Below, piece after piece: positions 318 through 34,225 of a DNA stretch of 38,543 nt (positions are counted from its first letter, which is position 1; each line of letters begins with the position of its first letter). Below the pieces are notes generated by a model that saw only the letters and a list, made by a program, of their open reading frames with translations, did not search any database and was not told the DNA's origin. The stretch covers positions 1 through 38,543 of the forward strand of contig CADDZJ010000031.1 in the NCBI GenBank assembly GCA_902812415.1. The letters are read 5' to 3'. The stretch comes from Acidobacteriota bacterium. GTDB taxonomy: Bacteria; Acidobacteriota; Terriglobia; UBA7540. A program made the translations under genes and the position numbers.

Positions 318-1544
318 TTAAGGTTGGGAAGGTTGCGATAGCTGCGCCGGGGCTTTGCGCCCCAGGACGCCCGCGCGGATGCCCTGCATGCTTTGGGAGG
401 CTGTGGTCTGGGCCTGGCGATAGGCCGTCAATTCACGGTTGGCGTCCTGAGCGCGTCCGGCGCGGCGATAGGCTGTGGCAAGCAGATAGTGGCCTTCGGG
501 GTTTCCAGGCTCAAGCTTGACGGCTCTTTCCAGCGGCGCTACAGCCTGTGCGGCATGCCCTGACGTGACCAGCGCGCGCCCCAGTTCCAGATAGGCTTCT
601 CCAAAGTTCGGATCAAGTTGCGTGGCACGGCTGAAGTAGTGTTCCGCTTCATCCCACTGGCGTTGTTGCAAGTCGAGTTCACCCAGAACAAATTCCGCCC
701 CAGCATTGCGCGGATCAATCTTAAGTTCCGCCTCGAATTCGCGCCGGGCGTTCTCCAGGGTGGCGGGTGTGCGCGGCTCTGAAAGAATCAGACGCCCAAT
801 CCGATAGTGAATGCCTGGTAGATCGGGCTTCATCGCCAGGACGCGGCGATATTCCTCTTCGGCTTCCTTCCATTTGTTCTGCATTTCAAGCGATTCGGCG
901 TTGAGCTCATGCACCTGGTAAGAGCCCGGGTCGGTCGTCAGAAGCCTTTGCGCGGCTCGCGTGGAGAGGTCGGAATAGACGTGAACGGTGAGGTAAAGAG
1001 CCTGGGGGTCTTTGGGAAAATCGCGATTGAGCATGGAGAGGAAATTGAGGGCGTCCTGTTCTTCGTCAAGCTCCATCGCGCAGCGAATGCCGTCCATTTC
1101 GACGGCGCGCTTCAGAACAGGCTCCTGAATTTCCGAGGGGTCCTTTTTCAAATAGGGAAGCGCTTCCCGGCAGCGGCCGCTTTCGGCGAGGCTGGCGCCG
1201 AAAAAGTGAGGAAACACGCTGGTGTGAGCGAGAGCGGGTTCGAGCTTAAGGGCCTTGCTGAACGACTGAGCGGCATCCAAAGGTCTGCCAGCGGTATAGT
1301 AGGCAATTCCTAATCCCTCAAAATTCCGGGCTGAGTGCGGATCAAGATGGATCAGGGTCGAGTAGGCATGAATAGCGGCCTGCGAGTCGCCGCGTTCAAG
1401 AGCGGCTTTCCCCTCCGTGGCAAGCTCGGACGGATTAACGGTCGCGCTCGAAGTTTTCTGCGCGGGGAATCCTGTTGTGGCGAACAGCGCTCCCAAAACG
1501 GCTGCCGTCATGAGCCTGAAAGCGGAATATCGGAAAGTCGGCAA
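318..1544 (-). CDS. Exported tetratricopeptide-repeat (TPR) protein
   Basis: The 408-residue protein has an N-terminal signal-like segment (about residues 1-28, ending near FPAQ) followed by about seven degenerate TPR units. Recognisable units include the GLGIAYYTAGRPLDAAQSF type near residue 75 and LGELDLQQRQWDEAEHYF near residue 290. TPR helices act as protein-protein scaffolds, so the partner is unknown; export to the periplasm or outer membrane is inferred from the signal. The start is a TTG at 1544 with AAGGA about 10 nt upstream. The alternative ATG at 1511 would leave a signal peptide with no positive charge. It follows TonB receptor 1 on the same strand, but a strong terminator between them means it probably has its own promoter. 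A second receptor-TPR association occurs at 28-33 kb. Confidence 0.85.
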   Translation of the reverse strand: MPTFRYSAFRLMTAAVLGALFATTGFPAQKTSSATVNPSELATEGKAALERGDSQAAIHAYSTLIHLDPHSARNFEGLGIAYYTAGRPLDAAQSFSKALKLEPALAHTSVFPHFFGASLAESGRCREALPYLKKDPSEIQEPVLKRAVEMDGIRCAMELDEEQDALNFLSMLNRDFPKDPQALYLTVHVYSDLSTRAAQRLLTTDPGSYQVHELNAESLEMQNKWKEAEEEYRRVLAMKPDLPGIHYRIGRLILSEPRTPATLENARREFEAELKIDPRNAGAEFVLGELDLQQRQWDEAEHYFSRATQLDPNFGEAYLELGRALVTSGHAAQAVAPLERAVKLEPGNPEGHYLLATAYRRAGRAQDANRELTAYRQAQTTASQSMQGIRAGVLGRKAPAQLSQPSQP

Positions 1545-1702: not shown

Positions 1703-4700
1703 TCAGAAGTAGAACTTGAGCGCAAACTGGATGTTGCGCGCCCCTTGCGAGCTTTGGATGAAGCCTAGAGTGGAGCCGAGTCCGCCGTTGGGCGAATTCA
1801 GTATCGGCGTATTGGCGAAGTTAATGAACTCGGCGCGGAACTCCAGGCGCTTCGATTCCGTAAAGGGGAACTCCTTCTGAAAGCTCAGGTCCACCGTGTT
1901 GAGGCCCGGCCCGCGGGTGGTTGCCGGGGCGCAAGTTCCGAACGTTCCCACGGGTTGCGAATACGAGCTTGGATCGAACCACAGAATTCCGCCTCCAAGC
2001 GCCGCAGGGATGTTGTTTTGATCAAGCGTCCGATCCGGACCGATGCAATTGGCGCGCGGGCCGCGGGAATTCGTCCCGGAAGCGTCGCTTGCCGAAATAT
2101 CGATCGGATAGCCGGTGTGCCATGAATAGATGCCGGTCACCTGCCAATCGCCGAGAACCGCGTTGACCACCGGATTCCAACTGTTGCCGAATTTCATCTT
2201 GTGGCCGAATGGCAACTGGTAAACGGCGTAGCCGGTCAGAATATGGGTGACGTCGTAATAGCAGGGCGCCCACTCGGCGCGCATGTCATAAACGTTTTGC
2301 CAGTAGGGAGAAGTCGGCGTCGTCTGGCCGCCCCAGGAGCCGTAGTAGCCGCTCGAATTGGTCATGCACTTGGAGTAGGTATAGGCTACCTGGTACTGAA
2401 GCCCGTTTGAGAACCGCTTTTGAAGCGTGGCCTGCAGCGCATCGTAGAGGTTGTCGCCGTTCGAGGCCGTTCCCGAGATGCCGCCGCCGGTTGAATTCAG
2501 GTCATTCACCAGCGTGGGGTTCCCGGCCAGATAGACGCTCGGCGCGGTCAACGGCGAGGTGGTGGCGGTTCCAGGCGTCACCAATTGCCGCTGGGCGTAG
2601 GGCATGGGCACCATCAGATGCGTGGAGTGCTCGCCCACGTACCCGACGTTTAGCGTGGTCTGGCCCGCGAATTGATGCTCGACTGAAAAGTTCCATTGCT
2701 GCACCACGGCCGGCATCACGTTCGGATCCCACACTCGCAGGAATACGCCCGCGAAAGGATCAGTCGGCAAGCCGAGGGTGCTTAACCCCTGATCCGAGGT
2801 CGAGCCCGGAAACGACAAGGAAGAGTAGTTTTGATTGAACTCTTCGTTGAAGGGCGGGTTGATAGGAAGGCGCAGGTTCGTTCCGGTGCCTTCCAGATAG
2901 GAGGAAAGAGTGTAGGCGCCACGAAACACCGTCTTGCCGCCAAGACTCTTGGGCGTCCAGGCAAAACCCAGGCGCGGCTGAAAATCAACGCCGAGATTGT
3001 AGCTGTTATAAAGCGCCCGGCAGTTGCTGTAAGGGCAGGAACCCTGGCCCGCAATATACTGCGTGCCGCTGAAGAGACCGAAGTTGGTCTGTTTGTTGTG
3101 AACCTCAACCCAGGGCGTGTGGTTCTCGTACCTGACGCCAATGTTGAAGGTCAGGTTGTCCGTCGCCCGCCAGTCGTCCTGAATATAGGATCCGAAGATG
3201 CTCGATCTCTGGCCCCAGACGCCGTTGCTGAGACCCAGGCCGAGCGACTCAGGAAGGCCCAGGAAGAAGTCGGCCTCTCCAAGGCCCACCGTCGAGCTGG
3301 AGTGCGAGAAAACGCCCGGTCCGGCAGTGAACTGGCCGTTATAGGTCATAAATCCCCAGACGCCGTTGTTGCCGGAGTAAAACGTATTGATCTGGTCGCG
3401 CCAGAACTGGAATCCTGTGTGGAGAACATGCCGGTTATGGGTGATGACCAGTTGGTCTTCGTACTGGAAGACCGTATCGTGAAACCGCTCTTCGTTGTTC
3501 TCGCTGCCGATTGTATCCAGCGAGCCGATATTCAAAGCGAGCAGCCCGGGGCCATGGCTGTTGCCATTGGCAATGCCAAGCTGTTCGGCGATGTTGCCCT
3601 TGTTGCCTGCCAGCACGCCGTTATCCACCAAAACACGATTCACCCCAGCGCGGGCTTCATTCACAATGCTCGGGCTGATGGAGCGCGTCCAATCCACGAC
3701 TCCGTTGTGAATGGGAGTCTCGAAGAACGAGTTGAAGAACAACGGGAACGAATTAAAACTGGGGTTGCTGCTTCGGCTCTGGGAATAGCGACCGAAAATA
3801 TGGTCCTTGTCGGATGCCTGATAGTCGATCTTTACGTCGCCCTGGTCGCCGAAGATTCCGCTCCGGCTGGCGTTCAGTTGATTGTGAACCAGATTGCCGT
3901 TAACGGGCGCAGGATAGAGCGGGGAAGAAAAGAGCTTGGCGGCAACCGGATCGATCATGCTTGGTGGAATAATGTTGCCGGCAAACGGTTGCCGACTGGA
4001 CGCGGAAGCTGGCAGCGGCTGGCAAGGCCCGCTGACGTTTGCGCAAGGGTTGTAAATCTGAATGCCGTTTTGGCTCAACTGTTGCGAAAAGTCTCCGTTC
4101 CGCTCCGCTTCAGTCATGACCGTGATGGGCCCGACGGTGTTGGGATTGTCAAATCGTTCGCCTTGATAATCAGTGAAGAAGAATAGCTTGTTCTTCCTGA
4201 TAGGCCCGCCAAAAGTGCCGCCGAACATATTCCAGCGCATCTTCGCCTTGGGGCTGCCCGAGAGGTTATCCGACCATTGCGCGGCATTGAAAATGTCATT
4301 GCGGACAAACTCAAAGGCGTCGCCATGGAAAGCGTTGGTGCCGGACTTGATCGTGGCATTGATGACGCCACCCATGAAATTCCCGAACTCGGCCGGCGCG
4401 TCAGCCGTAATCATGTTAAATTCCTGGATGGCATCGACACTGGGCGTGTAGCCCACCAGATTGTCGGAAACCTGGTTGTTGTCGAGACCGTCCAGAATGA
4501 AATTGTTGGCTTGCTCGCGGTTTCCATTCACATAGGGCCGACCCGCACTGTCCGCATTCTGAGCGGAAGTTAAGGTTTGGGGGTTGGGATTGGTGCTTCC
4601 CGGAACCAGTAAGGTCAGTTGTACGTAGTTTCGCGTTGCCAGCGGTAGGGCTTCATTGATCCGGGAATTGATTACGGTTCCAACCTGCGTGGTTTCCGTC

Positions 4701-5119
4701 TGAAGGAGGGGAGGCGCGCCGGTCACTTCCACCTTCTGGCTTACCAGCCCGAGTTTCAACTGAATGTCGACCCGAGCTTTCTGGTTCATTTCCAGAACGA
4801 TGTTCGGTCTGACCGCCGTCTGAAAGCCCTTGGCTTCAACGGTGACGTCGTAAGTGCTCGCTGGCAGCCTGGGAAGCGTATAGGCGCCGACTGCGTTGGT
4901 CTGCGTAGGCCAGGTTGTCCCCCGCAAATCGTCCTTTGCAACAACGGTGGCGCCTGGAATGGGAGCGCCTGAAGGATCGGTGATAGTGCCAATAAGACCT
5001 GCTGTCACGTCCTGCGCCCAGGCAATTTGTGGAACGATCCCAAGGATTGCGACGAATAACCCCAAAAAACCCAGAGACGGATAAACTTTCCAGGTCCGTC
5101 TTTGCTTACACCCTGTCAT
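1703..5119 (-). CDS. Oar-like TonB-dependent outer-membrane receptor 1
   Basis: From the chosen start the protein has 1138 residues. A signal peptide (about 1-35, cleavage near AWA-QD) precedes a carboxypeptidase-regulatory-like beta-sandwich (about 37-120, with DPSGAPIPGATV). A TonB plug follows, with PYVNGNREQANNFILDGLDN near residue 200, and then a long 22-stranded-type barrel ending in aromatic FYF at the C-terminus, as expected for Bam-dependent folding. The family imports large ligands (oligosaccharides, peptides, chelates) using TonB energy; the ligand here cannot be told. The ATG at 5119 is preceded by GAGGAGG, which decides the start over the longer frame to 5239. That extension is hydrophilic and unlike any signal peptide. 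A ROK regulator is encoded divergently from it and may control it (inference). Confidence 0.92.
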   Translation of the reverse strand: MTGCKQRRTWKVYPSLGFLGLFVAILGIVPQIAWAQDVTAGLIGTITDPSGAPIPGATVVAKDDLRGTTWPTQTNAVGAYTLPRLPASTYDVTVEAKGFQTAVRPNIVLEMNQKARVDIQLKLGLVSQKVEVTGAPPLLQTETTQVGTVINSRINEALPLATRNYVQLTLLVPGSTNPNPQTLTSAQNADSAGRPYVNGNREQANNFILDGLDNNQVSDNLVGYTPSVDAIQEFNMITADAPAEFGNFMGGVINATIKSGTNAFHGDAFEFVRNDIFNAAQWSDNLSGSPKAKMRWNMFGGTFGGPIRKNKLFFFTDYQGERFDNPNTVGPITVMTEAERNGDFSQQLSQNGIQIYNPCANVSGPCQPLPASASSRQPFAGNIIPPSMIDPVAAKLFSSPLYPAPVNGNLVHNQLNASRSGIFGDQGDVKIDYQASDKDHIFGRYSQSRSSNPSFNSFPLFFNSFFETPIHNGVVDWTRSISPSIVNEARAGVNRVLVDNGVLAGNKGNIAEQLGIANGNSHGPGLLALNIGSLDTIGSENNEERFHDTVFQYEDQLVITHNRHVLHTGFQFWRDQINTFYSGNNGVWGFMTYNGQFTAGPGVFSHSSSTVGLGEADFFLGLPESLGLGLSNGVWGQRSSIFGSYIQDDWRATDNLTFNIGVRYENHTPWVEVHNKQTNFGLFSGTQYIAGQGSCPYSNCRALYNSYNLGVDFQPRLGFAWTPKSLGGKTVFRGAYTLSSYLEGTGTNLRLPINPPFNEEFNQNYSSLSFPGSTSDQGLSTLGLPTDPFAGVFLRVWDPNVMPAVVQQWNFSVEHQFAGQTTLNVGYVGEHSTHLMVPMPYAQRQLVTPGTATTSPLTAPSVYLAGNPTLVNDLNSTGGGISGTASNGDNLYDALQATLQKRFSNGLQYQVAYTYSKCMTNSSGYYGSWGGQTTPTSPYWQNVYDMRAEWAPCYYDVTHILTGYAVYQLPFGHKMKFGNSWNPVVNAVLGDWQVTGIYSWHTGYPIDISASDASGTNSRGPRANCIGPDRTLDQNNIPAALGGGILWFDPSSYSQPVGTFGTCAPATTRGPGLNTVDLSFQKEFPFTESKRLEFRAEFINFANTPILNSPNGGLGSTLGFIQSSQGARNIQFALKFYF

Positions 5120-5683
5120 ACTGCCTCCTCTCAGTTTTCTGGGCCAGCCGGAAGCGGCTGACGCCGTTGTCCTCGCCTGGTGGCTGCGCTTATCCCGCAA
5201 CGTGAATTTGCGGCTCCCCTGCGCCTTGCGCCACTGCAATCCCCTGTGACGGTCGGGCTAAAATCTGAAGTTCGCATTCATTCTGCCATGTGAAACGCGC
5301 TGGGCCAAGAAGCTCGTGGCTGATTGTTCGAGTTTCACCTGGCCCTGAATGATTTAAACCCAACACTTAACCCTCCGTCCGCTGAGAAATACCAGAAATA
5401 TTGAGTGCTTGTCAAGAAATTTTTTGTATTTTTTAATTAAATGTGGCAATCTAAGTCATAGATTTCGTTTATTATTTGTAATTTTACATCAATCTATGAA
5501 ACCATATTTCTTTAAAGGTCTGGCTGAGGGATAATCTGGAAGCGCTCTATGAAGACCCAAATGCGCTTTTAAGGCTCAATTCAAGAGAGCGTTGAGGGGA
5601 ATCATCAGACGTTTGAATCGTGGCGTAAGTCGTAATGAAATGCTGTTTCACACTCTCCTTTATCGATAATAAGGACGTGTTCC
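5120..5683. other. Divergent control region between TonB receptor 1 and ROK regulator
   Basis: This 564-base gap is gene-free. It contains a markedly AT-rich block (about 5395-5515) unlike the surrounding genes, where both promoters are expected. The receptor transcript would carry a leader of roughly 260 nt if the promoter at 5386-5415 is used. I see no recognisable riboswitch. An open frame enters from the receptor side up to 5239 but has no ribosome-binding site. AAGGA at 5671-5675 serves the ROK gene. Confidence 0.6.
5386..5415 (-). promoter_or_regulatory. Candidate promoter for TonB receptor 1
   Basis: On the minus strand TTGACA (5415-5410) is a perfect -35 box. TATTTC (5391-5386) is a weaker -10 at 18-nt spacing. 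It sits in the AT-rich block. TonB receptor 2 has the same TTGACA in an AT-rich block (33525-33520), which supports the call only modestly. Confidence 0.4.
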
Positions 5684-25084: not shown

Positions 25085-25210
25085 CTTATAGCGGAGGTGG
25101 TCTCACTGCCGAAAACCGCCGGTGGGGACACCGGCGCTACAACAGAGGTTGTCATCGCAATTTGCAGACCGCAGTAACAAGAGAGAAGGTGCTAATAAAT
25201 CTCGCTGTAG

Positions 25211-25240
25211 CGGCGATCTGTGATCGCCGGATTTTTGTTT
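25211..25240 (+). terminator. Candidate terminator of copper ATPase
   Basis: An 8-bp perfect stem CGGCGATC/GATCGCCG with loop TGT (25211-25229) is followed by GGATTTTTGTTTT. It lies about 125 nt after the ATPase stop. It belongs to the repeat cluster, so terminator function is inferred from the T-run only. Confidence 0.5.
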
Positions 25241-25300
25241 TCAGAAACTTCGGCGAACATCGTTCGCCGCTACAACGGCGCGGATGAATTGATTCACAAC

Positions 25301-25348
25301 GTGGCAGGGCCGTCTCGGCCGTGGGCACGGGCGAGACGCCCGTGCCAC
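25301..25348. repeat. Nested double-hairpin element
   Basis: The outer arms GTGGCA (25301-25306) and TGCCAC (25343-25348) enclose two internal hairpins whose loops read TCT and AGA. The left half and the reverse complement of the right half are nearly identical (GTGGCA-GGGCCGTCTCG against GTGGCACGGGC-GTCTCG). It can therefore fold as two small hairpins or as one long one, the layout of a paired REP (BIME-like) element. Confidence 0.75.
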
Positions 25349-25410
25349 GCAAGAAAAATTTGCGTAAGCCGCAAACATTTTGACCCTTAGTAGTACACCT
25401 TCAGAGGCCG

Positions 25411-27375
25411 TCACTTGCCGGTATGCTGTTTGATGAGCAAGAAGAGAGTGTATGGGTCAACGAATTCCACATCCTTTCCTTTCGGCGAAGACTTGACGAG
25501 ATCGAACATCTTGCGATGCTCGCTCGGCGTCATCAGAATCGTGCGGAAGTAGAGAAAATCTGGCCGCTTTTTCTTCACCAGGCGCAACAGAAGCCTGGCG
25601 GACTCCTCAGGATTGTGATATTGGATGCTCTCTTCAACTTTGATGTAGGGCGTCCCATTGTAAACGCCCCAACTCTCGCCATATTGCAAACCGAGGCCGT
25701 TCGGCGAAAAGGTGGTGTAAGCCTCCTCGACCTTGCCCGAAGTATGAGCGGCATAGCCGTCAATGATGAAGCCGGTGACTGAAATATCCCACAGCTTGTA
25801 ATATTTCTGGCAATGCCGCGTCCAAACTTCCAATCCTGACGGCAGACCTGACCATTTTCGCGGCTCGACCAGATTCATGGGGTTTACATAACCGGCGCCT
25901 GAATCGCCGGCCACAAAACTATCGTTGGATGAGCTTTTCCTTCTGGCATAGACCAGTCCGGGAGCGAATCGGTCGGAGAGATTCGGATTAAAAGCCCAGC
26001 CTAACGGAACCGAGCCGCGAGCCGGGTCGCCCCACATATCCGGAATCCGCTGATAGATCCAGCCTGTTGAGTCATAGTCTCCCACATAAGCCGCTGCGTA
26101 AAATTTGGGGGCTACTTTTCCTTCCTCCGTGACATAACCTCTTCTTTTAAGGTCAGCAATCGTCGGCGGTTTTTGCGCGTACTGCGCGGCAAGCGGGTAG
26201 TGCTGGTAAATTGACGCATTGGCGATGTCGGCGATTGACCCGATATCGGCGTCCATGTAGGCGTTAAAGCAGGAATAAATCTCCGCAAAATGCCACTCGG
26301 TGGGCACGCCTTCATGCTTGCCGCCCTGCTGTTTCGTGTACTTCCTCTCAACCGGCGGAAATCCTCCGATGTGGATCATCGCCTCTCCGCCCGTTTGTTC
26401 CCACGCGGATCGGAGAATCGCCTGCATGGTTTTCAGGTCTGTTCCGATCGGCTGATGCGGATCGTCATTCGGCGCTTCATCGCCCCATGGGGAAAGATCG
26501 AAGAAAAAGCCGCGCTGAGCGATGAAGTAGTCATGATTCGAGAGCTTGTGGTCGGGAATATAGCCTTGCGGTTTTTGGAGCCAATAGGCGTCCAGATAAT
26601 AACCCATGTTTTTGGCGTTCGAGCGGCCCGTATCCAGATACTTCTCTTTAGCCCACAAATAGGCGTCGCATTTTGCGCTGCCGCTGGAGGGCGTTTTTGA
26701 ATCGGGAATCGTTCCCTGGCCCGTGAATAGGCTGCTGCCATCGGGATTAATCAACCAGACTTTTACAGGTAATCCGGGCCCTTTGGAAGAGCGCGTCAGC
26801 CATTGATGGAGCGAGTCGGGGTCTGGATCGTATCGCGCGCAAAGCAGGTTTTCAGCGCCCGCAACCGTCGAGGCCACATTCGAGGTGGCTGGAATCTTTT
26901 CGTCATAGACCACAAGCCCCTGAATTTCGTTCCTGAATGTCTCGAGGAGGGCGTTCAAGTCAGGCAGCGATTCCTGGCGACGATTTGCCAGCCACTTGTC
27001 CTCTTGTTGCAGGAATCGAAGCCAGAAATGATCGAGCGTCGGTGTGCCGGAAGGCAGAGCGCGAAGCCACGTCATATCCTGAGTTGCGGATTCAGGCCCC
27101 ATCAGGAAGGTATAGAGACGCGGCTGTTCGCGGTTTACAAGCCCTTGGAGGGAGGAGACAAAATGGCTGTGATCGTGGATTTTCCGCAGGTCTTTTGGAT
27201 TGTCGCGATTCAACTTTAAGGTATAAGTGAGGTCAAATGTGTAAAGGGGCCTGCCTTGCTCGCGTTCACCGCGTTTTGAAGAGCAACTTGCAAGGCCGAG
27301 CGCGCTTGCGCTCGCCGCCGCAGCTCCTAACGCAATCTGCCTCAGGAATTTGCGCCGGCTTTGTCTTCTTCTCAT
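25411..27375 (-). CDS. Tat-exported GxGYxYP-family lipoprotein, putative glycoside hydrolase
   Basis: The 654-residue protein opens with a twin-arginine signal (SRRKFLRQ, residues 6-13, then an Ala-rich helix) and a lipobox LASC with Cys31, so it should be folded in the cytoplasm, exported by Tat and lipid-anchored. SGAGYVNP near residue 492 is the GxGYxYP-type motif of a family proposed to be glycoside hydrolases. Other landmarks are HSHFVSSLQGLVNREQPRLY near the N-terminus, characteristic of its N-terminal domain, and aromatic/acidic clusters (DYDSTGW, GYAAHTSG). No enzyme activity is established to my knowledge. The ATG has GAGG 7 nt upstream. It is the last gene of a unit with TonB receptor 2 and two TPR proteins, 63 nt after the TPR gene. 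Confidence 0.8.
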   Translation of the reverse strand: MRRRQSRRKFLRQIALGAAAASASALGLASCSSKRGEREQGRPLYTFDLTYTLKLNRDNPKDLRKIHDHSHFVSSLQGLVNREQPRLYTFLMGPESATQDMTWLRALPSGTPTLDHFWLRFLQQEDKWLANRRQESLPDLNALLETFRNEIQGLVVYDEKIPATSNVASTVAGAENLLCARYDPDPDSLHQWLTRSSKGPGLPVKVWLINPDGSSLFTGQGTIPDSKTPSSGSAKCDAYLWAKEKYLDTGRSNAKNMGYYLDAYWLQKPQGYIPDHKLSNHDYFIAQRGFFFDLSPWGDEAPNDDPHQPIGTDLKTMQAILRSAWEQTGGEAMIHIGGFPPVERKYTKQQGGKHEGVPTEWHFAEIYSCFNAYMDADIGSIADIANASIYQHYPLAAQYAQKPPTIADLKRRGYVTEEGKVAPKFYAAAYVGDYDSTGWIYQRIPDMWGDPARGSVPLGWAFNPNLSDRFAPGLVYARRKSSSNDSFVAGDSGAGYVNPMNLVEPRKWSGLPSGLEVWTRHCQKYYKLWDISVTGFIIDGYAAHTSGKVEEAYTTFSPNGLGLQYGESWGVYNGTPYIKVEESIQYHNPEESARLLLRLVKKKRPDFLYFRTILMTPSEHRKMFDLVKSSPKGKDVEFVDPYTLFLLIKQHTGK

Positions 27376-27438
27376 CTCAATGCCTCGTCAGGTTATGTGA
27401 AAGCTCCTGTTTTCGCGTTGTAGCGGCGATAGGCGCCC

Positions 27439-28833
27439 TTATTCCTTGGCCGCGCGATACGCCGCTTCCAAATTCAATTTGTAGGCAGCCTTCCGGGGGT
27501 CAAGCGCAAGCGCGCGCTTGAATTCTTCAATCGCTTCCTGCGGATCGTGCGATTCGAGAGCAATCTGCCCCAGTTGATTGTACGCTTCGGCGGACTTTGG
27601 ATTCAGTTGAACGACGGTCTCAAAGCTATTGCGGGCTTGCGCGGAATTTTCCAGGCGTTCCTGAATCAATCCCATCAGATAGTAATAGGTCCATTCTGAG
27701 GGGGCCCGAGAAATAGCCTGTTGCGCGCATTGATGCGCCGGCTCATATTGCCCGGCGTCATAGTAAAGACTTGCCAGGCGATAAAGGACCTGATCGTTAT
27801 CAGGATAAAGTTGTTGCGCCTCTTTGACGAGTTGCAGCGCCTCCTGAAGTTTGCCGTCATCGACGAGCGGTTTGGCCTGCAAAAGCAACTTCATCGCCTT
27901 CCTTCGGGCTTCAAACGTTTTTTCCGATTGCTCCTTCAACTCCGCAAAGCGCTGCATGGCGGCATGCCGCTCTTCTGAGCGCCCGGCGTGCTCACAAGCG
28001 CTCGCCAGTTGGTAGTAAATGTCCGCATCGTTGGGAGAAAGCCGAGCGGCCTGCTCAAGCGCCGTAACCGCTTCCTGGTATTTGCCGAGCCGGTTGTAAG
28101 CCGAGCCGAGGAGGTAAAAAGGCTTGGAGTCGTTCGGAACCCGTGTCACAGCCTTCTGGAGCAGGGGAAGGGCCTGTTGGGTTCGGTTGGTCCTCAAATA
28201 GACGGCGCCCAGGCCGACCAGCGCTGAAGCGTTATCAGGGTCGGCGCGGAGCGCCTGATCTAACTCTTTCTCGGCTTGTTCAAACTTTCCTGTGGCCGCA
28301 TAGGCGGCGGCGAGGTCGCATTTCGCCTGAGGATCGGCGGGCTGTAACTCTACGAGGCGTTCAAGCAAGGGGACAGCCTGAGTATTCATCTCATGGCGCA
28401 AGCAAAGCTTGCCGGAAGCCCGCAGCGCCTCTACATTATTGGGCTGAAGTTTGAGCACGGCTTCATAGGCTGCCAGGGCGCGGTTGTCATCTCCCTTCTC
28501 GGCGTATGCTTCGGCAAGGGCGATTCTGGCATCCGGCATGGAAGGATTGCAGGCGGCGGCGCTGCTGAATTCCACAATCGCCTCATCAATTTGCTTCAAG
28601 CGGTAGCGCGCGAGGCCGATAAAAAATGGAATGGCGCAATCTGAAGACAACTTCTGCGCCTGTTCAAATGATCGCAACGCTTGAGTGTAATCGCCTGCAT
28701 TGAATGCCCGCTGTCCCTGCGCGACGAGCGCTGCCAATGAGGATGTTTGCGATGCGGCGGGCAGGCAGCCGATGAGCATCAGCAGGGCGCTAATGAGTTT
28801 TGGATGGAGAAGAGGCTTCCTGGGCACGTTCAA
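27439..28833 (-). CDS. Exported TPR protein, nearer the Tat lipoprotein
   Basis: The 464-residue protein has a signal peptide (about 1-29, ALLMLIGCLPAASQ) and roughly eleven TPR units. Examples are LVAQGQRAFNAGDYTQALRSF near residue 35 and LGQIALESHDPQEAIEEFKRAL near the C-terminus. A charged linker (ELKEQSEKTFEARRKAMKLL, about 283-302) may be a coiled coil that divides two TPR arrays. It likely scaffolds an envelope complex. The first start is TTG at 28833, overlapping the previous gene by 44 nt; GTG at 28827 is an alternative and neither has a strong ribosome-binding site, so translation may be coupled. No enzymatic residues are seen. Confidence 0.83.
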   Translation of the reverse strand: MNVPRKPLLHPKLISALLMLIGCLPAASQTSSLAALVAQGQRAFNAGDYTQALRSFEQAQKLSSDCAIPFFIGLARYRLKQIDEAIVEFSSAAACNPSMPDARIALAEAYAEKGDDNRALAAYEAVLKLQPNNVEALRASGKLCLRHEMNTQAVPLLERLVELQPADPQAKCDLAAAYAATGKFEQAEKELDQALRADPDNASALVGLGAVYLRTNRTQQALPLLQKAVTRVPNDSKPFYLLGSAYNRLGKYQEAVTALEQAARLSPNDADIYYQLASACEHAGRSEERHAAMQRFAELKEQSEKTFEARRKAMKLLLQAKPLVDDGKLQEALQLVKEAQQLYPDNDQVLYRLASLYYDAGQYEPAHQCAQQAISRAPSEWTYYYLMGLIQERLENSAQARNSFETVVQLNPKSAEAYNQLGQIALESHDPQEAIEEFKRALALDPRKAAYKLNLEAAYRAAKE

Positions 28834-29950
28834 TCTGCCGGGCGCTTTCCTGGCGGGAAAGTTGCTCGCTCTTTTCGATGGCCACGCGGGCCAAATCCTG
28901 CTTTCCTAACTTTCGATAGACCCTTCCTAACACGAAGTAAGTTGAGGATTCCTGATCTCCAAGCTGGATTCCTTTTTGAAGCGCGCCGGCTGACTTTTCC
29001 AGCTGCCCCATTTCTTCATAAGCGCGGCCCAATTCCACCCACGACATTGCCCTTCCGGAGTCAATTTGAACGGCCTTTTCAAGATAAGGCAAGGCCCGCT
29101 CGGGCTGATGCTCTTCCACATAGATATGCCCCATCTGGAGATAGGTGCGCGGGTAGGGTGCATCCAGAAGAAGTTCCTTTTGAAGCTCGGCAATGGCTGG
29201 CGCATATCGGCGTTGCTCCATATACAGGCAGCCCAGGGTGTAATGGAGGCCGCTTACTTTGGGGTCATGTCTCAGTAACGTCTCCAGTTCCTGGATGGCC
29301 TTCCGGTTTTCCCCGGAGGCTTCGTAATAGCCCGCCCGCAACTGGCCGATGCGAAGGGAATGGGGATCAATCGCAGTTATTTCCCGGACTGTTTCTTCAA
29401 ATTTTTTGCGCAGCTCGTTTTGATTTCCTTTCTTTTCCTGCGCCTCACGAAGATAACATTCAGCCAGGTGATAGAGAACATCCACGTTCCTGGGAGCTAT
29501 CCTGCGCGCCGCGATCAGAGATTGTTCAGCTTGTGAGCACCAACCCAGGCTTAAAAGCGAAAGGCCCAGATAGTAATGCCCCTGAAGGTCATCGGGGCGC
29601 GCCGCAACGTACTTATGGAGAGGCGCAAGAGCTTCCGCGGGCCGGTAAAGGTTGAAGTCTGACATGCCAAGCATCAGCCAGCCATTGGCCATGCTGGGAT
29701 CAAGCTTCAAACCCTGCTGAAGCGCCTCTCGCGCTGCCTGATATTTTTTCTGGAGAAAACAACTGATGCCGAGATCAATCCAGGCCGCCGCCATCTCGGG
29801 ATGAGCAACAACGAGGGCGCGGTAGTCTTTTTCTGCGACGGCGTAATGGCCTGCTTCTAACTCGGCTTGCGCAGTCTCAGTGGAGGGCGGCGGTCCTGAT
29901 TGCGCTCCCCATGCGCTCAGAGCCGCCGACAGAAAGACCGCTGCAATCAA
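28790..29950 (-). CDS. Exported TPR protein, coupled to TonB receptor 2
   Basis: The 386-residue protein has a short signal (about 1-17, AALSAWGAQ) lacking positive residues and about ten TPR units, including LEAGHYAVAEKDYRALVV at 31-48 and YTLGCLYMEQRRYAPAIAEL near 240. The start is TTG at 29950. Its TTG overlaps the receptor stop as TTGA, and GAGG lies 8 nt upstream in the receptor's last codons. Translational coupling to the receptor is therefore likely. Together with its neighbour it doubles the TPR dose in the operon. The role is probably to hold an outer-membrane uptake complex together; this is inference from domain type and position. Confidence 0.84.
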   Translation of the reverse strand: MIAAVFLSAALSAWGAQSGPPPSTETAQAELEAGHYAVAEKDYRALVVAHPEMAAAWIDLGISCFLQKKYQAAREALQQGLKLDPSMANGWLMLGMSDFNLYRPAEALAPLHKYVAARPDDLQGHYYLGLSLLSLGWCSQAEQSLIAARRIAPRNVDVLYHLAECYLREAQEKKGNQNELRKKFEETVREITAIDPHSLRIGQLRAGYYEASGENRKAIQELETLLRHDPKVSGLHYTLGCLYMEQRRYAPAIAELQKELLLDAPYPRTYLQMGHIYVEEHQPERALPYLEKAVQIDSGRAMSWVELGRAYEEMGQLEKSAGALQKGIQLGDQESSTYFVLGRVYRKLGKQDLARVAIEKSEQLSRQESARQIERAQEASSPSKTH

Positions 29951-32900
29951 AATTGAAACCTCAGCATGAATTGGATTTCCCGAGGATCGTTACGCTGATT
30001 GCTGATAAACCCGAAAGCGCCGCTTTCCACCGAATTGTTGGGCGCGCCGAGTTGGACTCGATTAAATGCATTGAAGAAGTTCGCGGAAAACGTCAGCTTG
30101 CGGTTTTCGCTGGGAAGATAGAAGTCCTTATACAACGAAAAGTCTTCGTTAAGCTGTGCCGGACTCCGCAGGTTGGAAAACACTGCTGGACTGTTCCCGA
30201 AAGTGAAGATAGCCGGCCGTGAGAAGGCCGCCGGATTGAGATAAGGCTGGGCGTTGGGATCGCCGTTCCATGCTGGATTGATGAGCGGGGCGCTCCAATT
30301 CACGTTGGCTCTTTCCGTCTGAGTGAAAAGGCCATTGGTCTGGTTGGAATTCACCCACATCGGATTGCCGCTCTGATACTGCTGAACGCCGCTCACGTGC
30401 CATCCGCCGAGAACTGCGTTGGTAATCCCGCTGGCGTTGCTCAGAAAATGTTGACCCCGGCCTACAGGCAGGGCATAAACGTAGCTGATCACCAGGCGGT
30501 GCGGAATGTCATCCGGGCTAATCGCCTTGTCCGCGCGCCGATCGAACTCATTTTGAGTTCCCACATCTCCATTGCCGGTAAAGCCGCCGAGCGCCGGATT
30601 ACCTCCTTGGGTGTTTGAGATGAGTTTCGACCAGGTGTAGGCCGCCTGGAACCAGAGCCCGTGGGAGGTCTGGTGTTCAACGCTGATCTCCAGGGCATTA
30701 AACGTGCTATGCCCGGTCATGTCCGTGCCCACATATTCGTTGACGCCGGGATATTGAGGAAATGGGCGCAGCGCCTGGGCCACGCTCTGCGTGGCCGGGA
30801 AGCTTGCGTAAGGCAGGGTGATCCCCGCCGCCTGGGCGGCGGGCGAGTCTATGGGATCGAGCAGCACAGTCCCAAGAGCGAGATATTTGGGATCAACCTG
30901 CATAATGTTTTCGCGGTTGGCATATAGTGAAATGCCGTTGGTTCCCTGGTAGGCTACGGTCAGCGCGGTATTAGCCCCGAATCGATGTTGAACCGTGGCG
31001 TTCCAGGAGCCCATGTAAGGAGCAAGCCCGGAGTACGGGTAAGTAATCCAGGGCGTGCATCCCACCGGATTCCCCCAGGCGCAAATTCCCGGATCGATCG
31101 TGGGTGAAGGTATCGGCGTGGGGAATCCCTGCGCCAGGGTGAAGGCGGGTGTGAAACTGTTGGGCGCGGACACGCTTCGATATCCTGCGAATCCGGTGTT
31201 GTGCGTATCGGAGTTGGCCGGTTCTCGCTGCGCCATGTAGAAGATTCCGCCGCCCGCGCGGAGCACTGTGTTAGGCGTCACGAGATAGGCCACGCCGAGC
31301 CGCGGGCCCAAAGCGTCCGTTCGCGTGTTGGTCCACCGGAACTTGCCGGTGCGGCCAGGGCCGATGCCTCCGAACTCAATCGCTCCCGGAAAACCATTGG
31401 CAGATGGATTCGGGCAGGTGAAGCAGAGATTGCCCGTGTTGCCGTATTTTTCCGAAATCGGGATGGGAAGTTCATAACGAAGCCCCATGTTGATCGTCAG
31501 CCTGGGGGTGGCTTTGAAATTGTCCTGCACAAACCACGCATAATACGGCGCCGCCCAGTGACCATAGCCGCCCAAATTGTAGGCTCCGCCGGAAGGAAGC
31601 CCCAGCAGGAAGGAGGCAAACGCCGAGCCGGTCTGGAACGGCGCTCCCGGTAGACCCGTCACGCTGGCGCCGAAATCAGCCTCGCCGGCGCATTGGTTAC
31701 AATCCTTGCGGGCAAATAAAGTGTGAAGGTATTCAAATCCCATCATGATGTCATGACGGTTGTGGATATCCGTGACCTCATCCAGGATTTCCCAGGTTCG
31801 ATCGGGAGAATTCGTATCCACCCAGAAGTTGACCTGGGCAAAGCCGTCTGACGTGAAGTTGTATTCTGAGGGCGCGTTCGGATCGCCCGGGATGCCTTTC
31901 AATTGAATAGCCTGCTTTTCCGCGGCGGTCAGCTTGTCAGAGCCGGACCGCAACTGGTTGGGCTGAGTTTCAAGATATCTCGTCCAGTTGCCGCTGAAGA
32001 GAAAATGATTCAGCAAGGTGGGCTTGATTGTGTAATCGTTGCTCAGGCGAAAGTAATCGCTCACGCCGCTGGACTCGAAATTGTTTCCAAGCGGACCCGG
32101 AATCGGTCCAATCTGCGGCGGCGATCCAAACGTTGACCGGCTATAGAGGCCGCTCCAATGCATCTTGTTGGAACTGTATGCGTCGATCTGGATGGAGGGG
32201 ACGTTATTGGTGCTTGCGGGATTCCCCACCTGGTGGATGTTATTGTAAAGCGATGAAGTCTGAGGGGGTGGAAGAAGGCCCAAAATCGTCTGGGCCGTGG
32301 CGTCGATGCGGCCGGAAGGGATGATATTCCCGGCAAACTGATCCCTGACGATCTGGCCGTTCACGATCCGCGTGGTTGTTGGGTCGTAGATGGGAATTTG
32401 CTGCCCGGCTCCATTGACCCAGCCGGAAAAGTCTCCGCTTCGCATCGCCATCGGCGGCACGGACGCCAGGCCGTTAGGGCTTCCGGCCTGATAGCGGTTT
32501 CCCTCATAGGCGAAGAAGAAAAAGAGCTTGTTGTGCCCGTTATAGACGCGCGGAATATCCACAGGGCCGCCGAAAGTGCCGCCAAAATCGTTTTGCCGCG
32601 TGACCGGCGTGGTGAGGTTATAGAACCCGCGGGCGTTCAGCGCCGTATTTCGAAAATACTCGAACAGTCCCCCGTGGAACTGGTTCGTTCCGGACTTGGT
32701 GACGAAATTCTCCACTCCATTGGCGGTTCTGCCGTACTCGGCGGAAAAAGATCCCGTCTGAACTTTAAACTCCTGAATGGCCTCCACACTGACGGGTGAA
32801 AATCCTCCGTCATTCTGGCGCCCGCTCATCGATTCACCGCCATCCAGCAGTTGACTCGACTCTGCCGAGAGGCCGCCGGCGACCCTGATGTAGTTGTCTC

Positions 32901-33423
32901 CGCCTCCGGCGTTGTAGGTTCCGGGCGTTAAAGTGACAAATTGCAGATTGTCGCGCAGGCCGCCTGAAAGACTCAGGGGTAAGGACAGGATCTGGTTCGA
33001 TGACAAAACCAGGCCCAGATCTGTGCGATCCGTCTGAAGCAGGGGAGGCGCGGCTTTAACCTGAACGGACTGCGTGACAGCGCCGACTTCCAATTTGAAA
33101 TCCACGCGCGTCGCCGTGTTGACTGCAACCGTAACCTGGCTGGCGACCGTTGAGCGAAATCCGGTCTTTTCCACAGTGACGGAATAAACGCCAACCGGCA
33201 GTTGAACGATGGTGTAATCGCCGCTGCTGGTCGCCAATGTGCTTTGCGTTCGTCCTGTCGCTGCATTTCTTGCTGTCACCTTGGCGCCAGGCACCGCTGC
33301 GCCCGAGGGATCAGTGACAACTCCCGTAATCGTCCCGCGATCCTGGGCAAAAGAAGCGAGAGAAGTGAGTAAGAACAAGAATGGAACGATGACTAGAATA
33401 GAGACCAGTCGTTTTCGCAACAT
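29947..33423 (-). CDS. Oar-like TonB-dependent outer-membrane receptor 2
   Basis: The 1158-residue chain begins with a signal peptide (1-26, SLASFAQ) and a carboxypeptidase-regulatory-like domain (about 28-112, DPSGAAVPGAKVTARN). The plug follows (LLDGGESMSGRQNDGGFSPV, then VEAIQEFKVQTGSFSAEYGR), and then a long beta barrel ends in FQF. It shares layout and motifs with receptor 1 (for example APPLLQT in both) but differs in the plug loops, suggesting another ligand. It imports a large unknown nutrient across the outer membrane with TonB. ATG at 33423 has GGAGG 7 nt upstream. It leads the operon of two TPR proteins and the Tat lipoprotein, which may process what it imports. Confidence 0.92.
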   Translation of the reverse strand: MLRKRLVSILVIVPFLFLLTSLASFAQDRGTITGVVTDPSGAAVPGAKVTARNAATGRTQSTLATSSGDYTIVQLPVGVYSVTVEKTGFRSTVASQVTVAVNTATRVDFKLEVGAVTQSVQVKAAPPLLQTDRTDLGLVLSSNQILSLPLSLSGGLRDNLQFVTLTPGTYNAGGGDNYIRVAGGLSAESSQLLDGGESMSGRQNDGGFSPVSVEAIQEFKVQTGSFSAEYGRTANGVENFVTKSGTNQFHGGLFEYFRNTALNARGFYNLTTPVTRQNDFGGTFGGPVDIPRVYNGHNKLFFFFAYEGNRYQAGSPNGLASVPPMAMRSGDFSGWVNGAGQQIPIYDPTTTRIVNGQIVRDQFAGNIIPSGRIDATAQTILGLLPPPQTSSLYNNIHQVGNPASTNNVPSIQIDAYSSNKMHWSGLYSRSTFGSPPQIGPIPGPLGNNFESSGVSDYFRLSNDYTIKPTLLNHFLFSGNWTRYLETQPNQLRSGSDKLTAAEKQAIQLKGIPGDPNAPSEYNFTSDGFAQVNFWVDTNSPDRTWEILDEVTDIHNRHDIMMGFEYLHTLFARKDCNQCAGEADFGASVTGLPGAPFQTGSAFASFLLGLPSGGAYNLGGYGHWAAPYYAWFVQDNFKATPRLTINMGLRYELPIPISEKYGNTGNLCFTCPNPSANGFPGAIEFGGIGPGRTGKFRWTNTRTDALGPRLGVAYLVTPNTVLRAGGGIFYMAQREPANSDTHNTGFAGYRSVSAPNSFTPAFTLAQGFPTPIPSPTIDPGICAWGNPVGCTPWITYPYSGLAPYMGSWNATVQHRFGANTALTVAYQGTNGISLYANRENIMQVDPKYLALGTVLLDPIDSPAAQAAGITLPYASFPATQSVAQALRPFPQYPGVNEYVGTDMTGHSTFNALEISVEHQTSHGLWFQAAYTWSKLISNTQGGNPALGGFTGNGDVGTQNEFDRRADKAISPDDIPHRLVISYVYALPVGRGQHFLSNASGITNAVLGGWHVSGVQQYQSGNPMWVNSNQTNGLFTQTERANVNWSAPLINPAWNGDPNAQPYLNPAAFSRPAIFTFGNSPAVFSNLRSPAQLNEDFSLYKDFYLPSENRKLTFSANFFNAFNRVQLGAPNNSVESGAFGFISNQRNDPREIQFMLRFQF

Positions 33424-34225
33424 GGGAATCCTCCAGCACGGATTGGGTCCACAGAAGAAAATAAATCGACTCTGCTGTTATTCAGCTTATATATCATTAA
33501 GAATCTTTCATAACAAAGATGTCAAGATTTTTTACAGCTTAGTAATTGATTCATATTAGAGACACTGTAGTTTGGCAAGTTGGAAAAATTTTCGGGGCAG
33601 GATGACACCTCCTTGGGTTACGACGAGGCGGCCACACTGCACTCCCCCTGCTCAATCAGCTCATTTCTGCACCTTAAATTGACGAACAATTTCCCCATTT
33701 TTCAGTTAAGTCGCTTCTTTTCTATTGATTGCGAGAAACTAACAATTTTAATAAATAAGCCATTTAGAATCTTATAGATACAAGGAATTTCGGAAATTGT
33801 TGGTCAAGAATGATTCGACAATAAGCCAATAACATCCATGTTTTCAATAAAGTAGCTTCCTTTTCACGCTCATCAAACCTAAACATTCTCTTTTTTTCCC
33901 AACCAATCGCAGCCCTAAACTCCAATTACGGCCCCTCTTTTTGGCCCAAGGGCAAGCTACTCCAATCAATTGGCGCCCAATGCCGTTTTTGCCCTCCGTT
34001 TGCGATTCCATTCCATCTCTCGCCGCTTCCTCCGGTGACGGTCGAAGGGCCTTTGGGGAAAGGAGCGGGGCGGTCGGGAACTATCTCCATGATTAGTCTA
34101 CATTGGTAGCCTATCTTCAGTCGAGCTCAATTGCGGCGGGTTGGCCGGTTGTGAAATGGGGTGAAGAAAATCCAAGGCTTCTCGCGAAGGAAAGGCCAGG
34201 CGGAGGCATGACGGCGGCCCTGCCA
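33424..34225. other. AT-rich gene-free region between TonB receptor 2 and phosphoketolase
   Basis: About 800 bases carry no convincing gene. 33470-33850 is strongly AT-rich; 33850-34020 is pyrimidine-rich with runs such as TTTTTTTCCC. The only open frame of note (33580-33777) has no ribosome-binding site and odd composition. The promoter of receptor 2 is expected near 33500. Beyond that I see no repeat, tRNA or riboswitch. It may be decayed or acquired DNA. Confidence 0.55.
33497..33525 (-). promoter_or_regulatory. Candidate promoter for TonB receptor 2 operon
   Basis: On the minus strand TTGACA (33525-33520) is a perfect -35, with TCTTAA (33502-33497) as a poor -10 at 17-nt spacing. The surrounding AT-rich tract matches the setting of the receptor 1 promoter. 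The leader would be roughly 65-75 nt. Confidence 0.35.

Follow-up and report, generated by a model that had tools for sequence, protein, structure and literature searches.

The window analysed here is a 38,543-nt stretch of DNA, contig C31 of a 4.84 Mb, 96% complete genome from the phylum Acidobacteriota. Four of its genes follow one another head to tail on the minus strand in the order receptor, TPR-A, TPR-B, GxGYxYP (Table 1), and a simple gene caller that uses hexamers and was trained on the source genome scored the same four as coding. Receptor and TPR-A overlap by 4 nt, the letters TTGA at 29950-29947 holding both the stop of the former and the start of the latter. TPR-B has two start candidates, a TTG at 28833 and an in-frame GTG at 28827, which give an overlap with TPR-A of 44 or 38 nt, respectively, and the GxGYxYP gene follows 63 nt after TPR-B. 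A preliminary description of this DNA had reported the four reading frames, the TTGA and 44-nt overlaps and the 63-nt gap, and all of them were recovered from the reading frames, the sequence and the Pfam matches. The TTG starts of TPR-A and TPR-B are unproven readings of the sequence.

Table 1. Features of the window discussed in the text.
Feature	Position	Strand	Evidence and remarks
Oar-like TonB-dependent receptor	29947..33423	-	PF25183, PF13620, PF07715; one of the genome's 66 PF25183 matches
TPR-A, secreted TPR solenoid	28790..29950	-	Pfam TPR; large paralogous family
TPR-B, second TPR protein	27439..28833	-	Pfam TPR (E 8e-57); lipobox match
TPR-A/TPR-B frame overlap, 44 nt (38 nt with the GTG start)	28790..28833	-	ORF coordinates and sequence
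GxGYxYP protein, putative glycoside hydrolase	25411..27375	-	PF14323, PF16216
AT-rich 802-nt region 5' of the receptor	33424..34225	-	Composition, sequence
Receptor 1, second Oar-like TonB-dependent receptor	1703..5239	-	PF25183 (E 2.8e-216)
TPR gene 3' of receptor 1	318..1544	-	Pfam TPR; neighbour table

The AT-rich region upstream of the receptor has a GC content of 45%, falling locally to 27-36%, and carries a TTGACA at 33525-33520. It is the probable promoter region of the receptor; the predicted promoter itself is unproven, since a promoter scan gave no more sites than shuffled sequences. The scan against shuffles likewise gave no above-chance internal promoters or terminators in the four-gene stretch, which, together with the gene overlaps, would be compatible with a single transcript over all four genes. 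The intergenic stretch at 25130-25400 contains several short GC-rich palindromes (e.g., tgtagcggcgaacgatgttcgccg and ccggcgatcacagatcgccgctaca) resembling dispersed REP-type elements.

The receptor matches PF25183 (OMP_b-brl_4, E 5.5e-188), PF13620 (CarboxypepD_reg, 1.4e-21) and, weakly, the Plug family PF07715 (1.7e-5). With its N-terminal CarboxypepD_reg domain, plug and barrel, it has the layout of Oar-like TonB-dependent receptors, and its C-terminus, LRFQF, ends in an aromatic residue. No SusC model was found among its NCBIfam matches, and its barrel belongs to PF25183 and not to the SusC type. Several receptor paralogues are interrupted by an in-frame stop or a frameshift (L045, at C7:38890-41586 of the same genome; L083; L071; genes 5-6 of L212); these split genes are decaying or mis-assembled copies within the 66-match family.

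Both middle genes encode TPR proteins, as judged by tandem 34-residue helical pairs in the Pfam matches and in the TPR-A model. TPR-A holds about 10 TPR units behind a Sec-type signal peptide (MIAAVFLSAALSAWGA, cleaved before Q) with no lipobox, and its predicted model (pLDDT 94.5) is an all-helical, regular solenoid over the full length, matched best by the OGT TPR domain and designed TPRs. There are 74 TPR-A-like matches in the genome. TPR-B carries a signal peptide with a possible lipobox, LIGC, and the best match in an orthologue search was only 32% identical. An alignment of the TPR-A (P0002) family revealed a conserved non-canonical stretch, LM..Ty..m...PDSYR.H, and a serine, S198 in P0002, that is invariant.

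SusD is the usual sugar-binding protein in the sugar-scavenging clusters of gut bacteria. The possibility that the TPR proteins are SusD homologues was rejected: no SusD family appeared among the Pfam matches shown for them, nor was SusD listed in the top 50 fold matches of TPR-A. With filters off and three sequences searched, the SusD HMM reached E values of 0.06 on TPR-B and 0.37 on TPR-A. SusD_RagB (PF07980) was found in 0 of 40 genomes of the order, the Bacteroides control being positive, and no SusD/RagB protein lies next to the receptor in the window. SusD itself holds four TPRs plus a loop-rich domain (PMC2954216), so the analogy between TPR proteins and SusD has a structural grain without homology.

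The last gene encodes a protein with both GxGYxYP domains, GxGYxYP_N and GxGYxYP_C (PF16216, 38.1 bits against a cut-off of 23.9; PF14323, 88.2 bits against 27). It had been proposed to be a Tat-exported lipoprotein, and its N-terminus indeed reads as one, with the Tat motif SRRKFL and the lipobox LASC31. The top fold match of its model, which is of low confidence (mean pLDDT 51), was BT2193 (3sgg, E 3.3e-12). D433 and D435 align with Asp331 and Asp333 of BT2193, and the counterpart of Glu272, which belongs to the acidic triad of that protein, is E353 or E360, depending on the alignment. Hydrolase activity of the family is a prediction (PMC4071793). The gene is the only one of its family in the source genome. 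Its closest relatives come from Bacteroidota (Pedobacter, 41% identity over 24-649; Tannerella, 40%), and those from Acidobacteriota show 22-28% identity. The Bacteroidota relatives came from an alignment-based contig search; a single-protein search, which gave no match, was therefore misleading. A lateral origin of the gene is likely; its GC content is 0.54 vs 0.57 for the window, and base composition gives no sign of a transfer.

The general association between receptors and TPR genes is a more interesting result than the quartet itself. The preliminary description had pointed to a TPR gene beside receptor 1 and to the pairing being recurrent. This gene was found downstream of receptor 1, separated by about 158-191 nt, depending on its start, and the recurrence proved to exceed chance. 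In the source genome, a downstream neighbour is visible for 64 receptors, and for 10 of them this immediate neighbour is a TPR gene of the same strand, compared with 6 such cases among 297 other genes (odds ratio 9, P=5.4e-5); since loci were fetched around receptors, this background is drawn from the same neighbourhoods. A TPR gene upstream of the receptor was seen in 1 of 53 cases. The enrichment was replicated in two relatives (G032 and G019), where 9 of 62 TPR-A-like genes lie directly downstream of a receptor with about 0.8 expected (P ~7e-8), two lie upstream of one, and six are convergent to one; these six tail-to-tail pairs in two genomes may exceed chance. Overall, same-strand downstream adjacency reaches about 8-12 times expectation in three genomes and is strongly one-sided. 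About one-sixth of receptors have a TPR gene behind them, and most have neither a TPR gene nor a close co-directional gene.

Receptor-TPR-TPR triads were found in L212 (own genome), L213, L215, L220, L222 and L226, with very short gaps between genes in L220. In a sample picked by TPR-A similarity, without a background rate, carbohydrate genes follow the receptor-TPR(-TPR) unit in several loci: GHL6/fucosidase-like and GH42M genes in L212, phosphoesterase and GH2 genes in L213, GH94 in L203, GH28 in L209 (after a 659-nt gap), GH38 in L238 and a sugar-isomerase-like gene in L207. Some other units are followed by a CRTAC1/FG-GAP gene, a lactate permease or a transposase. L220 (G004:C16), from a relative, is a tight operon of the order TPR-CRTAC1-receptor-TPR-TPR-CRTAC1 and then a sugar-transporter-like gene, CRTAC1 standing for FG-GAP plus UnbV_ASPIC.

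On the receptor tree, which was built on a profile alignment and is weakly resolved at these distances, TPR linkage is scattered (19 changes vs a shuffled mean of 18.2). An old obligate receptor-TPR pair should show some clustering there. As the linkage is not inherited along the tree, the pairing appears modular and labile and not an obligate SusCD-like pair. Several points speak against a strict analogy with SusD: besides the scatter on the tree, homology to SusD is lacking, and the lipobox is absent from most receptor-linked TPR proteins of the relatives.

The quartet, in turn, is not conserved. GxGYxYP searches of genomes from the order, class and phylum gave no second case of the ordered series receptor-TPR-TPR-GxGYxYP. 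A TPR pair stands beside GxGYxYP in 0 of 20 other Acidobacteriota loci, and the TPR profile found no TPR gene near GxGYxYP in 61 loci, mostly from other phyla, within the flanks covered; the preliminary description had itself named such a lack of conservation as refuting the quartet. A receptor was near GxGYxYP in about 9 of the 20 Acidobacteriota loci, with TonB-dependent receptors beside it in L093, L094, L096, L132, L130 (GH92), L128 (GH76 and GH92) and L134, and genes of GH92, GH76, GH106 or rhamnogalacturonan-lyase-like type accompany other such loci. The most regular arrangement (L093, L094, L096, L132) consists of a receptor, two genes of about 375 aa and GxGYxYP. Gene pairs of this kind, with at most weak DUF4185 similarity, were located at L132:3299-5532, L094:10211-12547 and L098:3640-6104; a ~375-aa pair between receptor and GxGYxYP is a recurring uncharacterised arrangement in Acidobacteriota.

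Among Bacteroidota, SusC-SusD lies upstream of GxGYxYP in 11 loci, with DUF3823 in between in 9 of them. The order is GH92-GH92-SusC-SusD-DUF3823-GxGYxYP-GxGYxYP in Pedobacter (L240) and SusC-SusD-DUF3823-GxGYxYP-GxGYxYP in Tannerella (L263), where the first gene is called SusC by profile only. Thus, the GxGYxYP gene of the window closes a predicted receptor operon just as the genes of its Bacteroidota relatives do, with two TPR genes where those loci have SusD and DUF3823. The SusC/SusD-like logic previously ascribed to the locus is in part supported: receptor-TPR adjacency is enriched and replicated, triads of a receptor and two TPR genes are found elsewhere, carbohydrate genes are frequent followers, the closest GxGYxYP relatives end SusC-SusD-DUF3823 loci, and the 40 genomes of the order lack SusD.

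Such evidence induces us to regard the quartet, with about even confidence, as a polysaccharide-utilisation-like operon whose core is a GxGYxYP enzyme of Bacteroidota type and in which TPR adaptors occupy the SusD position. The four genes would form one transcriptional unit that acts as a polysaccharide-utilisation locus of small size. Energised by TonB, the Oar-like receptor might bring an oligosaccharide, or else a glycopeptide, through the outer membrane; the GxGYxYP protein, a lipoprotein that would fold before its export by Tat, would be anchored in the envelope and process the glycan. TPR-A would be an exported adaptor soluble in the periplasm and TPR-B one that is probably lipid-anchored; together, they may tether the enzyme to the receptor (or to the cargo) at the SusD/DUF3823 place. 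The unit was probably assembled locally, a Bacteroidota-type GxGYxYP gene having been put behind a resident receptor-TPR module. We infer the co-transcription, localisation, glycan substrate, adaptor role and lateral origin of the quartet from such comparisons, and an alpha-mannan type substrate is a guess from the GH92/GH76 neighbours of the relatives. It is tempting to go further and suppose, although we do so with considerable doubt, that secreted TPR solenoids convergently took the SusD role in SusD-less Acidobacteriota as partners of Oar-like receptors in modular receptor-TPR-enzyme glycan loci, the quartet being one instance with a Bacteroidota-type GxGYxYP protein.

An alternative, which we consider unlikely, is that abundant families were stacked by chance, the receptor-TPR-TPR-enzyme string having no joint function beyond shared transcription. 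In a genome with 66 matches to Oar-like receptors and secreted TPR genes by the dozen, the quartet would be just one local arrangement among many. The lack of a second quartet, the 74 TPR-A-like matches, TPR linkage that does not follow the receptor tree and some TPR genes convergent to receptors, hence not co-transcribed with them, all agree with this scenario; however, the one-sided adjacency repeated in three genomes, the gene overlaps in the window and the very short gaps in L220 speak against it. Chance stacking accounts for the quartet's uniqueness but not for the receptor-TPR enrichment.

It is also conceivable, but improbable, that the receptor secretes, as Oar of Myxococcus xanthus does, with the TPR proteins acting as periplasmic chaperones or adaptors and a TPR protein or the enzyme as possible cargo. 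M. xanthus Oar is needed, with TonB, for secretion of the protease PopC, and no sequence feature is known to separate secreting from importing receptors (PMC6434023). The Oar-type domain layout of the receptor and the TPR solenoids, which are typical chaperone and adaptor folds, would suit such a role, but the GxGYxYP protein is predicted to be lipid-anchored and not free cargo, and its relatives sit in SusC-SusD import loci. Similarly improbable is a role of the TPR proteins outside substrate handling, dedicated to assembling or stabilising the neighbouring beta-barrel: TPR proteins do serve in barrel and pilus assembly, ours weakly match the PilW, Tgl, BepA and BamD models and TPR genes accompany receptors of many clades, but these NCBIfam matches fall far below the cut-offs and about five-sixths of receptors have no TPR neighbour.

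Genomes of the order hold dozens of Oar-like receptors each, and we found neither their substrates nor any TPR partners of acidobacterial receptors described in the open-access literature. If TPR proteins are receptor partners, the association would offer a rule for finding SusD-less acidobacterial uptake loci and also a protein pair. The quartet would give a new context to the GxGYxYP family, whose activity is still predicted.

Finally, we would like to compare the quartet with known systems. M. xanthus Oar shares the N-terminal extension-plug-barrel arrangement with our receptor, but it secretes PopC, and no TPR partner is described for it in the accessible part of the source (PMC6434023). 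BT2193 (PDB 3sgg) and the GxGYxYP protein have domains, fold and two barrel acids in common, but differ by low identity, the Tat lipoprotein signal and the motif GAGYVNP. L212, L213, L215 and L220 resemble the window in receptor type and in two tandem TPR-A homologues directly downstream, whereas the next genes are fucosidase-like/GH42M, phosphoesterase and GH2, transposase and CRTAC1, respectively. Conversely, L093, L094, L096 and L132 match it in order and strand, sometimes with 4-nt overlaps, but their middle pair is not TPR and their GxGYxYP protein is of another subfamily (23-25% identity). SusD is a surface lipoprotein; a lipobox is lacking in TPR-A and in most receptor-linked TPR proteins of the relatives, whereas TPR-B has LIGC. 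The loci of Pedobacter, Tannerella and Petrimonas (L267) share with the window a TonB-dependent receptor, a helical partner and GxGYxYP in last position, the enzymes of the first two being 40-41% identical to ours; their receptor is SusC, whereas that of the window is of the OMP_b-brl_4/Oar type, and two regular TPR solenoids occupy the place of SusD and DUF3823. Loci that combine a TonB-dependent receptor and a putative glycoside hydrolase are known; TPR proteins in the partner position would be the new element here.
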